The notes beneath the pieces are model-generated. The model saw nothing but the letters and a program-made list of their open reading frames with translations. It had not been told where the DNA came from and searched no databases. 64,000 nt of DNA from the NCBI GenBank assembly GCA_016790815.1, contig JAEUOG010000064.1, forward strand, positions 46,759 through 110,758, in the 5' to 3' direction. The translations under genes were made by a program, and so were the position numbers. This DNA is from Dechloromonas sp. GTDB taxonomy: Bacteria > Pseudomonadota > Gammaproteobacteria > Burkholderiales > Rhodocyclaceae. Shown piece after piece: positions 57,958 through 63,861 of this stretch; the stretch's first letter is position 1, and every line of letters begins with the position of its first letter.

Positions 57958-58031
57958 GCCCCCGTAGCATGAAGGTCGTGCAGTTGATTTGTAATCATCA
58001 GGTAGCGGTTCGATTCCGTTCGGGGGCACCA
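57958..58031 (+). tRNA. tRNA-Thr (anticodon TGT), CCA encoded
   Basis: The sequence folds as a cloverleaf: seven-pair acceptor stem (GCCCCCG with CGGGGGC), four-pair D stem with a short 7-base loop, anticodon loop TTTGTAA with TGT at 57990-57992, a short 4-base variable region, T arm with TTCGATT loop, and encoded ACCA. The anticodon stem has one T-T mismatch. The short D and variable loops are unusual, but the fold holds. It is followed by an apparent integrated element, so its 3' end is the probable attachment site. Confidence 0.88.
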
Positions 58032-58175: not shown

Positions 58176-59264
58176 CTACTGGGGATAATTCGCTGTTGTT
58201 TCAAATACAACGCTCATCGGTTGTGTTCCTTGATGGCTGCGATAGAGAACCGGGCCAAAATAGACAAATGGTGCCGCTTTCCCCGCTGCAAGCTTGTGCT
58301 CTCGAATGAACATGTGAATTTTTCTGCCGACGCTTTGGTGCTCGATAATTTCCTTGCCACGCTTGCTGCTGGGGCTGGTTGAATTCTGTGACTGCCAGTG
58401 GAAGGTCTTTTCGTCGATCCAGTAATCGGTGTAACGATGGTCTGCTGATTTGCCTTGCTTGTTCAATGTGATCAGCAGCACGTGGCTATTCTTCTGGCTG
58501 AGAACAACATGGCCGCTGTGCCAATTGCCGGCATTAAAGATTTCACCGAATAGGCCAGGAATCTCCTCTCGCATAAACGATTGCCCAATTGCAAGATCCA
58601 GCGGATCGATTACCCGTTTGAGTCGTGCCAGCGTACGCATGTTTTCATCGGCGGCTAGATCGCTGTAATCCGGATTGTTGGCTTTTAGTAGGTAGCTGCC
58701 ATCGCGATTCTTGTTTACAACGCGTAGTAAATACTGGTTATCGCCGGTTTCATCCTGACGTTCGATAGCGACAATGTGGCCACTGATCGAACCGGCATTG
58801 CTTGATGTTAATAGCTCCAAAAGAAGCAAATCTCCATCGCAGATCGGCGTTTTTCCGCCATTCATCGAATTTCCAATAGCGCGTGCGATGAAATGTCGAG
58901 CTGGGTCGAGTTGACCGTAAGAGACCGGAATTGCGCGGTGTTCTAGTACTTCTGATGTGCTGGTACGGAAATGGCCGCAAGCAATACGTAAGTCATCGAA
59001 ATAGGGAAGCTCGATGCTTGGAAGCTTATTGGTTTTTGTGAAAGGAATGACTTGTGCAGATTCCGGTTGGCTAGCCTGGCGCGATTCGTAGCATGCGAAA
59101 CGGTAATCGATCAGTTCTTGAACGAGACTAGTCAGAGCTTCGGTTTGGCTGGGCGAAACAGGCAGTGTGGTTTTGAAAAAATCGCCTTCTAATGTGAAAA
59201 ATGCGCGACTTTGTTCGGTGCGATTCCCTCCTATCCAAGCGTTCACTGGGTTGTTAAGGGCCAT
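58176..59264 (-). CDS. S24-peptidase-like / DUF3427 fusion protein
   Basis: This 362-residue protein has three parts. Residues 1-85 are unassigned. Residues about 88-225 look like a LexA/S24-type domain, with Ser133 in ARAIGNSMNGG followed by ICDGDLLLLE. Aligning by eye to LexA, the catalytic lysine position is Arg181 (YLLRVVNK), so self-cleavage may be lost. Residues about 235-358 resemble DUF3427 (YTDYWIDEKTFHWQSQNSTS; GRKIHMFIREHK; FVYFGPVLYRSHQGTQPMS), a domain usually found at the end of DEAD-box helicase-nuclease proteins. It is the first gene of the island. Function unknown; a DNA-damage or defence-linked sensor is possible. Confidence 0.75.
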   Translation of the reverse strand: MALNNPVNAWIGGNRTEQSRAFFTLEGDFFKTTLPVSPSQTEALTSLVQELIDYRFACYESRQASQPESAQVIPFTKTNKLPSIELPYFDDLRIACGHFRTSTSEVLEHRAIPVSYGQLDPARHFIARAIGNSMNGGKTPICDGDLLLLELLTSSNAGSISGHIVAIERQDETGDNQYLLRVVNKNRDGSYLLKANNPDYSDLAADENMRTLARLKRVIDPLDLAIGQSFMREEIPGLFGEIFNAGNWHSGHVVLSQKNSHVLLITLNKQGKSADHRYTDYWIDEKTFHWQSQNSTSPSSKRGKEIIEHQSVGRKIHMFIREHKLAAGKAAPFVYFGPVLYRSHQGTQPMSVVFETTANYPQ

Positions 59265-59295
59265 TCATTTTTTTCGAGCTTGCGCGCAAATTGTC

Positions 59296-59856
59296 CTAGT
59301 TCGCGTAGTTGACCTCATCTTCGACAACGTCCGTAAGCCAGCGCTCCAGGTCGGATTTGCCCTGACGAATCATCTCTTCTTTCGCCTCGGTGACCGGCGC
59401 GTTCCCCTTGGCGTTGAAACCGGTGAGATCGAGTTTGAGCAGATGGTCCATCAACGCTTCCGCACCGCCTCGGTTATCCCGCCAATCGACAAAGTTGCCT
59501 CCTGCACTAACCATGCGTGCGACGTGCCTCTCAGCACTCTTCACCGTGCGAGCCAATTCCTTGTGATCAAGCGGCGGGCTGTTGCTGAGATTCCAGCCGT
59601 TCATTGCCTCCAGGACCTCTTCTGTCGAGTGACCATTCTCGAAGAGGGTGCAGGAGCGCTTAAAGGCTTCGCTGTTGCGCAAACCTTCTGCAACGCCTGT
59701 GGTCGGCGGCGGCAGCAATGCGGCTTCAGGCTGCGAAGGAGCTACTGCCTCACGTTCGCAATAGCTTCGTTCTTTCCGTGTGTACGTAAGCTGCACTCCA
59801 AGAACATACAGTTTTGCCTGAACCTCCCAGGTAAGAGGGGGGTATCTCGAAGGCAC
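59296..59856 (-). pseudogene. Remnant of phage/plasmid primase-helicase
   Basis: This 186-residue frame joins a primase C-terminal-like segment (SEAFKRSCTLFENGHSTEEVLEAMNGWNLSNSPPLDHKEL region, PriCT-like) directly to the end of a DUF5906/D5-type helicase (RGGAEALMDHLLKLDLTGFN, NAPVTEAKEEMIRQGKSDLERWL). In intact proteins several hundred residues of ATPase separate these parts, so an in-frame deletion is likely. The start (GTG) has no ribosome site. It could still be translated as a small protein, but replication activity is not expected. Confidence 0.65.
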
Positions 59857-59974: not shown

Positions 59975-60223
59975 ATGGCCCACCAAATATTGTCTGAAAC
60001 AGCAGCGAGCATTTCCGAGTTGAAGCGCAATCCCATGGGCACGGTTGCGGCCGGCGAGGGCTTTCCTGTAGCGATTCTGAATCGGAATGAGCCGGCGTTC
60101 TATTGCGTTCCTGCTCAGGCCTTCGAGGCAATGATGGAGCGTCTGGAAGACTTGGAATTGAATGCGCTGGCAGATGCTCGTGCTGGTCAAAGGAGCGTGA
60201 AGGTCAAACTCGATGAGCTATGA
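59975..60223 (+). CDS. Phd/YefM-family antitoxin
   Basis: The 82-residue protein has a Phd/YefM-type DNA-binding N-terminus (ETAASISELKRNPMGTVAAGEGFPVAILNRNEPAFYCVPAQAFEAMMERLEDLE region) and a charged C-terminal tail for binding the toxin. GGGAGG lies five bases upstream. It overlaps the toxin start by 11 bases, typical of antitoxin-toxin pairs. The StbD branch is a good guess for the subfamily. Confidence 0.92.
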   Translation: MAHQILSETAASISELKRNPMGTVAAGEGFPVAILNRNEPAFYCVPAQAFEAMMERLEDLELNALADARAGQRSVKVKLDEL

Positions 60224-60494
60224 GCTCGAATTCCTGGAAGTGGCTCTAGCCGAATGGCACCGACTGGACGGTTCGGTCAAAGCACAATTTAAAAAGAAAC
60301 TGGCTGAACGACTTGTTGAACCGCGTATGCCGTCGGCCAAGCTATCAGGGCATCCTGATCGCTACAAGATCAAGTTGCGCACTATCGGTTATCGGTTGGT
60401 TTATGAAGTTCAGGATGGAAGGTTGGTTGTGCTTGTCGTTGCCATTGGTAAGCGCGACAAAAATGCAGTGTACAAGGCCGCCGAGGGACGCTGA
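60213..60494 (+). CDS. RelE/StbE-family toxin
   Basis: The 93-residue protein has the RelE fold pattern: EFLEVALAEWHRLDGSVKAQFKKKLAERL, then KLSGHPDRYKIKLRTIGYRLVYEVQDGRLVVLVVAIGKRDKNAVY. RelE-family toxins are ribosome-dependent mRNA endonucleases. The basic and aromatic residues needed by the family (K/R and Y in the second half) are present. It overlaps the antitoxin gene. Confidence 0.92.
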   Translation: MSYELEFLEVALAEWHRLDGSVKAQFKKKLAERLVEPRMPSAKLSGHPDRYKIKLRTIGYRLVYEVQDGRLVVLVVAIGKRDKNAVYKAAEGR

Positions 60495-60584: not shown

Positions 60585-61931
60585 TCAGGCCTGATCGAGG
60601 CTCAGGAAGCGTTCTGCAAGATTGTCGGTGGTATAGAACACGAATGCGTTGCCTTGTTTGAGCTTCACAAGCAAGCCGAGTTCTTCCAAGCCCAACAGAT
60701 CGGCACGGGCGGTCTGGTAAACGACATTGTGCACAGCCTGGTGCTTTGCAACCCGATAGACTTCACCGGGGTGTTTCAGTGCGTGCGTCAGTAATGCGAG
60801 CTGTCGATGGTTCAGTTGAGCACGTAGCTGACCTGTCTTGATCAGCAGACTCTCCGCTTCTTTTTGTTCCGCGAACTTGCGGCCAAGGTATTCGTGAAGG
60901 GTGGCGATGGATCGCCGAATGATGTCTAACTGATAGAGGACGAAGTAAGTGGTGTCGTTCCGGTCGGTTTCTGTGTGCAGGTAAGCCTGGACGTATTGTC
61001 TTGGGGCGCTACGCAGGAACTGTGAGATCGAGAGAAATTCCATCAGCCAATAGCCACTCCGTGCCATCGACCAGTAGAACAAGGCGCGCGCAGTACGGCC
61101 GTTGCCATCGGCGAACGGGTGGTCGTATCCGATCATGAAGTGCAGGAGGATCGCCCGGACTACTGGATGGACGAAGGGAGAGCTATCGGCATCAGCATTC
61201 GCGAATGCGCACAGCTTTTCCAAACGTTCGGGAAGCTCCTTGAAGTTGGGTGGTTGGTGCAGGAGCTTGCCGTCACGATTGTCGACCACGTTAACGTCAT
61301 CGGAGTCTCGCAGTCTGCCTGCATCAGCAGGATTGTCCAGCGTATCCTGCGTGATGACACGGTGCAGTTCGAGGATGTGTTCTGGCGTGATCTTCTCGTC
61401 TTTCAGGTGACGTAACTGCTCCATCGCCTGATAGTTGTTGAAGATCATTGTCTCGCTGCGATCCCGAGGTTGCCGTCTGTCGCGCAGCATGGCCTCGGCG
61501 ACCTTTCGGGTGGTCGAAGCTCCTTCGAGCTGACTTGAGGTGATCGACTCCTCGATCAATGAGTGCAGCAGGTAGCGTTCCCGATTCTCGTGAATCGAAC
61601 TCGACGTTGGTGTCTTGATTTGTCCTGCAGCATCGCGATCGATGTGATGGAGATGTACAAGCAGTGGCTCCGGGGTTGCCAACCGGAACGGATTTCCTTC
61701 TTTGTCTGTGAATGGCAGTGGCTGAAGGATTGAGCCCCTGGCTAGCGATACGGCAAGCCACCACTTTTCTGAAGAGAGTCCCTCGGGTGGCGGGCGGTGC
61801 CGTAGATCATCCCAATGCAGATATTTACCCACAGGCAGAGGGTTCGAGTGTTGGAATATCTTCGCGAGCTCGTTTGGTACGAGCTGCGCGAGCAAGCGTT
61901 CCACAGTCGGTGGGCTCATTGGGATTTTCAT
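60585..61931 (-). CDS. Fic-domain protein (probable AMP-transferase) with winged-helix C-terminus
   Basis: The 448-residue protein has the complete Fic active-site motif HPFADGNGRTAR (271-282) and, before it, SSQLEG (132-137), matching the inhibitory helix motif [S/T]xxxE[G/N] of class II Fic proteins. The N-terminal 100 residues resemble the Fic N-terminal extension. The C-terminal part (about 365-445) reads as a winged-helix DNA-binding region (LNHRQLALLTHALKHPGEVYRV). Fic enzymes usually attach AMP to a protein hydroxyl; the target here is unknown. It may regulate its own promoter. Confidence 0.93.
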   Translation of the reverse strand: MKIPMSPPTVERLLAQLVPNELAKIFQHSNPLPVGKYLHWDDLRHRPPPEGLSSEKWWLAVSLARGSILQPLPFTDKEGNPFRLATPEPLLVHLHHIDRDAAGQIKTPTSSSIHENRERYLLHSLIEESITSSQLEGASTTRKVAEAMLRDRRQPRDRSETMIFNNYQAMEQLRHLKDEKITPEHILELHRVITQDTLDNPADAGRLRDSDDVNVVDNRDGKLLHQPPNFKELPERLEKLCAFANADADSSPFVHPVVRAILLHFMIGYDHPFADGNGRTARALFYWSMARSGYWLMEFLSISQFLRSAPRQYVQAYLHTETDRNDTTYFVLYQLDIIRRSIATLHEYLGRKFAEQKEAESLLIKTGQLRAQLNHRQLALLTHALKHPGEVYRVAKHQAVHNVVYQTARADLLGLEELGLLVKLKQGNAFVFYTTDNLAERFLSLDQA

Positions 61932-62113: not shown

Positions 62114-63277
62114 ATGAGCGATATTTACCTTAGGCCGCAACTTGCGGCCCAGATGGCTCAGCAACTCTTGAAGCCAACAGGGCTTGATGTAGGGCTGCGC
62201 TCTGGACTTTTCCTGTCTGGTCTCCGTCGAACCGGCAAGACGACATTCTTGCGAAATGATCTGATACCCGCGCTGGAAGCGGCAGGGGCACTCGTTATTT
62301 ACGTTGACCTGTGGAGCGACACCCAGACAAACCCTGCAAAATTAGTGCACTCGGCGATCCGGAAAACCTTGGAGGATTTGCTGACGCCAGCGTCATCGCT
62401 TTTGGAAAAGCTCAAGTGCATCAAAGGAGCTGACTTTGGTGCATTTGGGTTCAAGTTTGGCTTCAAGTTGGAGAGTGTCGGTCTTGAAGGTGGCGCAACG
62501 CTTGCGGAAGCGCTGACAGAGGTGGTCGATCAGGCAAAGACGGATGTGGTACTGATCGTGGATGAAGTGCAGCACGCGATAACTACTGATGAAGGCAATC
62601 AGCTTCTGCTCGCACTCAAGGCCGCTCGTGATGCGATCAATCCTCGTCCTGCTACGCCTGGCCACTTCGTATTCATCGGGACCGGGTCGCATCGAGCCAT
62701 GGTCAGCGAACTGACAGCACGTAGAAATCAGGCTTTTGTAGGGGCTACGTCGGTTCCTTATCCCGTATTGGATGAGGATTTCGTGAGGTTTTTGCTGACG
62801 AGACTGGAGAAGGATGGGTTTGGACCCTTACCCTCCATCAGTGTCGCAGCCGAGGCATTCAAAATGCTGGGAAGTCGTCCTGAAGAGCTTATCCGCGCAC
62901 TACGGCAACTCCTGTTGAACTCCCCAAAAGACAAAAATCCTGACGAGATGCTTCCTCTTATTGCATCGACACTGCGCTCCGCTGCTGCAGATGTCGAACT
63001 CACGAAAGTCGAGGAGTTGGGGAGCCTTGCGCAGGCGATCTTTGATCGAATCGCATCAACTGATGGAGATGCGCGTGGCGTATTTTCAACTGAGGCTGCC
63101 GCGGAATATTCCAAGTTGGTTGGTCGCGAAGTTCGAGTCGAGGAAGTTCAGCCTGTTGCTAATGAGTTGCTGGCTGCTAACCTCATCATGCGCCGAGGAC
63201 ACGGTATTTATGGAATCACAGATCCGTTCGTCCAGGAAATCTGGCGCGAAAAGCAGATCATGTTGGGAAAGAGTTAG
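62114..63277 (+). CDS. AAA-type ATPase of unknown function
   Basis: The 387-residue protein has Walker A GLRRTGKT (36-43), Walker B VVLIVDE (145-151), and a sensor-like HFVFIGTGSH strand near 187, giving an archaeal-ATPase/Orc1-like layout. A Gly/Phe/Lys-rich segment (FGAFGFKFGFKLESVGLEGG) lies between the Walker motifs. The C-terminal third (about 290-380) appears to be winged helix. No nuclease or transposase motif is visible. It is transcribed away from the Fic gene and may be regulated with it. Function cannot be assigned. Confidence 0.85.
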   Translation: MSDIYLRPQLAAQMAQQLLKPTGLDVGLRSGLFLSGLRRTGKTTFLRNDLIPALEAAGALVIYVDLWSDTQTNPAKLVHSAIRKTLEDLLTPASSLLEKLKCIKGADFGAFGFKFGFKLESVGLEGGATLAEALTEVVDQAKTDVVLIVDEVQHAITTDEGNQLLLALKAARDAINPRPATPGHFVFIGTGSHRAMVSELTARRNQAFVGATSVPYPVLDEDFVRFLLTRLEKDGFGPLPSISVAAEAFKMLGSRPEELIRALRQLLLNSPKDKNPDEMLPLIASTLRSAAADVELTKVEELGSLAQAIFDRIASTDGDARGVFSTEAAAEYSKLVGREVRVEEVQPVANELLAANLIMRRGHGIYGITDPFVQEIWREKQIMLGKS

Positions 63278-63289
63278 TTCGTTGCTGAG

Positions 63290-63861
63290 CTAACTGAGAG
63301 ATTTTCTTCTCTTCATCGGCAAGACATTGCTGTCCGATGTATTGCCCTTGGCAATGTCATCGAGGCGGCGTTCCCAAGCCTCTAGCGCGTTTCGTTTCTC
63401 GGTAATGTATTCGTAGCGGTCATAGTGGGCCGCCTGCACACCCGAGAGACCATGGCTGAGCAGTTGGGCTCGAACGTCCTTGCTCACTCCCATGCCGGCC
63501 AGCATGGTTTCGCATGTCCGGCGAATGTCGCGCAGGTCGAACGCTTCACAGCCCATAACCTGGCAAATCGAGAAGACGCGCTTGCCGGGTGTGGTTTCCA
63601 CCATGGGGGTGCTGCCATTGGAAGAAAACAGCAGATCGCTTTTCTTCTTTTTCGCCATCGCAAGCAGCTTCTCGACAATTGCGGCTCCTTTGGGCGCCAG
63701 CGGAAGAAGATGCTCGCGTGGCGTGATCCGTTTTCCCTTCTTATCCCATAATCGGAGCGTCTCAGTTTCCTGGTCATAGTCGCTTACCTTGGCTCGAAGT
63801 AGCTGAGCCATGCGTTGACCGCCGGCAAACAGCGCTAGCTGTAGCGCCAGGTCGGCAATGC
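63290..63861 (-). pseudogene. Tyrosine recombinase (integrase), 5' truncated
   Basis: The frame holds the catalytic half of a P4-type tyrosine recombinase: the first arginine in LFAGGQRMAQLLRA, the second arginine in DLRDIRRTCET, histidine in LLSHG and the tyrosine in AAHYDRYEYI. Its upstream part is missing: the frame leaves integrase-like sequence (SIADLALQLALFAGGQR) at about 63861 and enters sequence that looks like an IS end. It probably once integrated this island at the tRNA. The remaining fragment lacks the N-terminal DNA-binding domains. Confidence 0.85.

Follow-up and report, generated by a model that had tools for sequence, protein, structure and literature searches.

The 64-kb stretch of Dechloromonas sp. 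DNA that we analysed as a whole (the window) carries a 362-aa open frame on its minus strand, with a helicase-like scrap directly upstream, an adjoining primase fragment and a tRNA gene facing its other side (Table 1). The interval is open on the minus strand only; its plus strand is broken by stops. Both Pfam matches of this frame, Peptidase_S24 and DUF3427, exceed their curated cut-offs, and thus the fusion of these two domains, which an earlier sequence-only reading had proposed, is real. The DUF3427 match is nevertheless partial, covering profile positions 126-245 of 280, and neither a PLD nuclease nor an SF2 ATPase was found by Pfam in the chain, which holds only S24 and part of DUF3427. 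Residues 258-358 match the end of PADLOC mREase_IV (SauUSI type) with an E value of 4e-18. The AlphaFold2 model of the frame is weak (mean pLDDT 64.7, pTM 0.49, residues 66-118 below 50), but the structure prediction suggested by the earlier reading agreed as to the folds: Foldseek searches with this weak model returned the lambda-repressor C-terminal domain, UmuD', SauUSI and SUVH6, at E values from 9.5e-5 to 1.6e-2.

Table 1. Features of the locus, in window coordinates
Feature	Position	Strand	Remarks
tRNA-Thr (TGT)	57958..58031	+	3' end points towards the remnant; probably the border of the island
362-aa open frame	58176..59264	-	almost certainly what remains, at the C-terminus, of a methyltransferase-PLD-SF2-S24-DUF3427 protein of restriction type; homology from ~59255
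DUF3427, residues 223-344	58233..58598	-	Pfam E 6e-19; Foldseek SauUSI 7clg, SUVH6
Peptidase_S24 domain, residues 93-212	58629..58988	-	Pfam E 1.1e-10; Foldseek lambda repressor C-terminal domain, UmuD'
Arg181	58722..58724	-	aligns with LexA Lys156
Ser133	58866..58868	-	aligns with LexA Ser119
Cys96-Gly97	58974..58979	-	aligns with UmuD Cys-Gly / LexA Ala84-Gly85 cleavage site
Junction of internal deletion and frame change	59254..59258	-	~158 codons gone, equal to G020 residues 774-931
20-residue helicase-domain scrap	59255..59314	-	in another frame than the ORF; tblastn, 75-85% identical to G010/G020
Primase fragment (PriCT_1)	59296..59856	-	adjoins the truncated gene; Pfam

Truncation and decay of the window gene

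The best matches to the window frame outside its own genome, among 76 genomes of the genus of which 8 gave any match, are 72-73% identical and lie in G010, G455 and G020. In all three the matching stretch is the C-terminus of a far longer open frame, of 1365, 1270 and 1288 aa respectively (the G455 frame starts at a contig end). In G010, the one of these three relatives on which Pfam was run, the domain order is methyltransferase, PLD, ResIII/Helicase_C, S24 and DUF3427. When the G020 and G010 proteins were searched against the window, G020 residues 932-1282 matched 59255-58203, and residues 754-773 matched the helicase scrap at 59314-59255 (85% identical, tblastn E 4.8e-5; 75% and E 0.001 for G010), which is flanked by stops; nothing significant before G020 residue 754 matched in the window. 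Because two collinear pieces of one gene stand in two frames, we regard the open frame, with near certainty, as the 5'-truncated, internally deleted and decayed remnant of a large restriction-type enzyme. The helicase-free architecture described by the sequence-only reading is therefore a product of truncation, and a helicase-free sensor protein is rejected in view of the scrap directly upstream in another frame.

The ATG of the frame, at 59264, falls out of frame within the helicase scrap, has a stop immediately before it, and is an accident. The C-terminal part (350 codons) is stop-free, with a dN/dS of 0.086 against G010 that is only rough, the synonymous sites being near saturation. At positions that are constant in the other five sequences the window copy differs in 7 of 166 cases, all conservatively; in the same comparison G020 differs at 6 of 165, and the near-sisters G010 and G455 at 2 of 161 each. 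To judge from these substitutions the decay looks recent, and ongoing selection on the fragment is possible too. It is most improbable, however, that truncation gave birth to a working helicase-free S24-DUF3427 protein. The 362 open codons and the mostly synonymous divergence would fit such a protein, but recent decay explains the conservation equally well, the start codon is the one just described, and no ribosome-binding site is visible by eye. Moreover, no other helicase-free S24-DUF3427 frame was found among the genus, class, phylum and order matches: the shorter S24 frames are HNH-S24 (G592) or keep the helicase (577 aa in G366, 784 in G1138, 824 in G1154), and the remaining short ones are fragments, some at contig ends (L010, L046, G663, G1057 and the second copy in G1138). 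An assembly error is a highly unlikely source of the truncation. The draft assembly consists of 81 contigs, its completeness is 76% and the window runs up to the end of its contig, but the junction lies inside the contig, beside the primase fragment, and a search of this draft turned up no further copy of the S24-bearing gene. As a pseudogene, the window copy is of little interest alone.

The remnant appears to sit in a degraded mobile island beside tRNA-Thr, a placement that forms part of the overall explanation we favour below. The tRNA gene is probably the island border; a 20-base piece of it was not found a second time in the window. The island cargo comprises a Phd/ParE-type pair (59975-60494), a Fic protein (60585-61931) that matches PADLOC SoFic with an E value of 6e-42, an AAA ATPase (62114-63277) and an integrase-family frame of 173 aa (63290-63811) near the contig end, where the island ends as well.

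Intact relatives

Among 369 genomes of the class, alignment A1 gave S24-covering matches in 7, a count that includes the genome of the window, and matches to DUF3427 only in another 7; in a phylum sample of 398, S24-covering matches occurred in 7 (G000, G406, G622, G787, G611, G592 and G663) and DUF3427 only in 13. The S24 alignment A3 gave matches in 17 of 390 genomes of G592's order; these class, phylum and order samples overlap. A phage origin was rejected: viral contigs gave no match with query P0001 and a single contig, HNH-S24, with A3, and annotated phages gave none for the HNH-S24 protein P0002.

The domains occur in several orders. The complete arrangement is methyltransferase-PLD-SF2-S24-DUF3427 in a single chain, and a second arrangement, PLD-SF2-S24-DUF3427, has the methyltransferase as a neighbouring gene. 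A third, PLD-SF2-S24, has nothing after S24 (L041, L042, L045, L070, L071 and L102; L043 is alike, with its start cut by a contig end). HNH-S24 proteins have a methyltransferase gene directly upstream (L072 and L093), and L074 encodes a ResIII helicase that gave no PLD match and breaks off within S24. Pfam searches of 12 helicase-S24 proteins found ResIII in all 12, Helicase_C above cut-off in 11 (L074 falls just below), and PLDc_2 in 11 (L035, L002, L038, L040, L041, L042, L045, L071, L094, L102 and L103, with L002 at the 27-bit cut-off and L042 just below it) and not in L074. DUF3427 was found in six (L035, L002, L038, L040, L094 and L103) and not in L041, L042, L045, L071, L102 or L074. A search for the window DUF3427 part in nine S24-terminal or short S24 loci found none, except as a separate gene in L045. 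In the S24-terminal G204 and G787 the profile match extends slightly beyond the stop, so these ends may be recent. In G663 (L074:1124-8421) the S24 match stops after about residue 159 beside ORFs that by eye resemble Mu-type transposition genes, and a second S24 piece (query 148-214) lies ~38 kb off in that contig, a layout that would fit the insertion of a Mu-like element.

We built a tree of the helicase-coupler region from 43 proteins, after leaving out three short rows (L008, L010 and L074); its root is arbitrary. The presence of S24 (20 rows) needs 2 changes on this tree, and none of 500 shuffles was as low. Four S24-free rows fall on the S24 side, L047 from an alphaproteobacterium and L052, L054 and L062 from outside the window's class; since the root is arbitrary, the tree fits a gain plus one loss as well as it fits a nearby gain. 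S24-terminal members occur in at least two places: L042, which is sister to DUF3427-bearing Alteromonas-type rows (100/100), and the group of L045, L070 and L071 (99/94), with L041 and L043 unplaced. Because the S24-free rows carry DUF3427, the simpler reading of the tree is that the S24-terminal members probably lost DUF3427 and retained S24.

The closest known system is SauUSI, which cuts 5mC DNA with a PLD nuclease, an SF2 motor and an SRA-fold reader joined by a coupler (PMC7913695; PMC3874153; PMC7159879); DUF3427 is described there as the SRA-fold target-recognition domain (PMC7913695). The S24 relatives resemble SauUSI and PADLOC mREase_IV in having a PLD nuclease, an SF2 motor and, in the members that carry it, a C-terminal DUF3427/SRA domain in a single chain, and the four that were scanned with PADLOC matched mREase_IV with E values from 4.7e-127 to 6.7e-89. 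Unlike SauUSI, they carry S24 between the motor/coupler and DUF3427, many have a methyltransferase fused or adjacent, several end at S24 without DUF3427, and the window copy is without nuclease and motor. The intact relatives, whose full layout runs from a class I methyltransferase through the PLD nuclease, SF2 helicase motor, coupler and S24 to the DUF3427 base reader, are probably SauUSI-like restriction enzymes. By analogy with SauUSI, DUF3427 would recognise modified DNA, the SF2 motor would translocate and the PLD domain would cut.

The S24 nuclease usually has a class I methyltransferase in its own chain or next to it. This methyltransferase was matched in 17 of the 21 longer S24 loci and not in L001, L008, L043 or L046; in the first three of these the gene is interrupted by a contig end, and the last is a remnant. 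In L040 the methyltransferase is convergent, on the far side of the helicase. Among loci L093-L104, 7 of 12 gave a match and L094, L096, L097, L101 and L103 gave none. Both HNH nucleases fused to an Arg-type S24 (L072:4866-7007 and L093:4280-6411) have a class I methyltransferase gene directly upstream. The methyltransferase is, however, not tied to S24: methyltransferase-HNH gene pairs without S24 occur on Pseudoalteromonas plasmids (L105:3408-5095 and L106:4408-6149), their methyltransferase being 82% identical to that beside the L045 S24 helicase; the S24-free DUF3427 helicase locus L056 also has a methyltransferase match (in most S24-free loci the flank is too short to judge); and 5 of the 12 S24 loci gave none. 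In the Paraglaciecola locus, the methyltransferase encoded upstream of the S24 helicase (L009:2805-3779) carries a fused NUDIX domain.

The S24 active site

The active site was aligned by three MAFFT strategies, with E. coli LexA and UmuD, the genome's own LexA and 20 family rows. The equivalences of Ser119 with Ser133, Lys156 with Arg181 and Ala84-Gly85 with Cys96-Gly97 hold in all 20 family rows and under all three strategies, and both residues singled out by the earlier reading, the retained serine and the arginine in place of the catalytic lysine, are as it described them. Across 43 S24 loci, a set that was not de-duplicated and includes close relatives and a few broken copies, Ser is present at the Ser133 position in all 43, Arg at the LexA-Lys156 position in all 41 that reach it, and Cys-Gly at the cleavage-site position in all 42 that reach it. 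The conservation of the Lys-to-Arg change among homologues, which that reading had asked about, is thus borne out, and decay of the window copy is ruled out as the source of Arg181. It had also raised the case of a conserved lysine elsewhere in the active site. This was not clearly found: Lys138, near Ser133 in sequence, is present in 40 of the 43 loci, the others having Ser (two) or Asp (one), and Lys185 is present in 40 of 41; because Arg181 is more constant than either, neither seems a good candidate for a catalytic substitute.

For comparison, S24 matches were collected from 60 genomes of the window's order. All 29 of the best-scoring S24 loci are Ser-Lys. From 60 lower-scoring stretches, which are part of all such matches, the profile recovered 50 and left 10 unrecovered; counting the best match per stretch, 40 are Ser-Lys, 9 Ser-Arg and 1 Tyr-Arg. 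Nine of the ten Arg cases show no aligned residues at the cleavage site, perhaps in part an effect of trimming, and one has Leu-Gly. Arg is therefore not unique to the nuclease family, and because other Ser-Arg S24 proteins exist it is not special by itself; judged from the alignments, Ser-Arg pairs recur, and it is Arg together with the constant Cys-Gly site that appears to mark the S24 nucleases. Seven loci of the order (L176-L181 and L183) encode small, similar S24 proteins that carry the Ser-Arg pair and have no residues aligned at the cleavage-site position.

Since the catalytic Lys is missing, classical Ser-Lys chemistry is absent from the family, and one alternative is that its S24 domain is catalytically dead and serves only to dimerise or bind, Arg being there to fix the fold. 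The replacement of Lys in every locus that reaches the position would agree with this, as would the Ser-Arg domains of the order, which suggest that non-cleaving domains of this kind probably exist. A domain that only binds, however, would have no need to preserve Ala-Cys-Gly (42 of 42 loci) and Ser (43 of 43), and we consider this alternative rather doubtful. The constancy of Cys-Gly, Ser and Arg suggests instead that the site may still be shaped for the domain's own loop. The LexA Lys156Arg mutant has been studied earlier and reportedly keeps some autodigestion at high pH. The fixed catalytic positions around a Lys-to-Arg change make the family a test of whether a Ser-Arg pair works in an S24 active site.

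Possible roles of the S24 domain

S24 domains are known for self-cleavage and protein interaction. The family S24 shares with the C-terminal domains of LexA, UmuD and lambda repressor the fold, the Ser and the UmuD-type Cys-Gly site, but differs in its Arg for the catalytic Lys, in its fusion to a nuclease and in having no repressor or polymerase partner. We lean slightly towards a control domain with a maintained site, because S24 occurs on unrelated nucleases (PLD-SF2 and HNH) and persists in enzymes that have lost the DUF3427 reader; the S24 would then be a C-terminal control domain of the nuclease and not a base reader. A second target-recognition domain that can replace DUF3427, and would give the S24-terminal enzymes a different DNA or phage mark to read, is improbable. 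S24 is indeed the last domain in seven loci, where SauUSI has its target-recognition domain, but it coexists with DUF3427 in 14 of the 20 S24 tree rows (motif flag), keeps the LexA-type catalytic positions except Lys, and belongs to a class of domains whose general associations are those named above.

As a control domain, the S24 might work like the switch in LexA, by docking the Cys-Gly loop of its own chain in the Ser/Arg site, which would tie activity to DNA damage (through the RecA filament) or to the partner methyltransferase. Cleavage at Cys-Gly would part motor and nuclease from the base reader and would thus act as built-in restriction alleviation. We put forward control by slow or triggered cleavage only tentatively, and control by non-cleaving docking more tentatively still. 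Speculative as well is a wider proposal, that the Arg-type S24 is a transferable, methyltransferase-linked control module of PLD-SF2 nucleases, with or without an SRA reader, and of HNH nucleases, in which triggered slow Ser-Arg self-cleavage at Cys-Gly would couple cutting to the DNA-damage state. Taken as a whole, the explanation that we favour, with moderate confidence, is that the window holds the remnant of a single-chain restriction enzyme with an S24 control domain.

To our knowledge, there is so far little explanation of how a cell protects its chromosome from its own modification-dependent restriction enzymes. In the case of EcoKI, a type I enzyme, restriction alleviation involves ClpXP (PMC4231737; PMC11109961). 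The evidence presented here suggests that the intact S24 relatives may have a built-in control switch; if so, they would be restriction enzymes with their own LexA-type off or on switch, and a LexA-like domain in a type IV-like enzyme would allow a direct test of a built-in damage switch. In the open-access collection searched, the two papers that mention DUF3427 were without S24 or LexA in their main text, no paper joining S24 with helicase, restriction and phospholipase D was found, among the matches listed for S24 with HNH and anti-phage terms none was evidently on this fusion, and the one match for SauUSI together with S24 was a staphylococcal review. Because most subscription papers lie outside this search, it is weak evidence that the S24-nuclease fusion is new to the literature.

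The earlier reading had asked whether the neighbours are defence genes, and this proved true of some loci and not of others. We considered ten neighbouring proteins from the loci of six relatives, hand-picked as promising (the other loci were viewed by eye), a set that gives no rate. PADLOC defence matches were found in four of the six: Hma (L003), Lamassu (L045), PD-Lambda-2 (L036) and a DpdE/ZorD-like helicase (L070). The PD-Lambda-2 match of L036 is in Pfam a HigB-type toxin with an HTH protein, possibly an ordinary toxin-antitoxin pair. The neighbours in L005 had no PADLOC defence match, and those in L009 had matches only on the NUDIX-methyltransferase (candidate family PDC-S07, and mad2).

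A C-terminal S24 also occurs on a helicase of another kind, an 820-aa Schlafen-group-3 protein in G038 (L194:4399-6858, minus strand). It is like the family in joining a helicase to a C-terminal S24, but the helicase is unrelated and the S24, by eye, is of the Lys type, keeping Ser, Lys and an Ala-Gly site.
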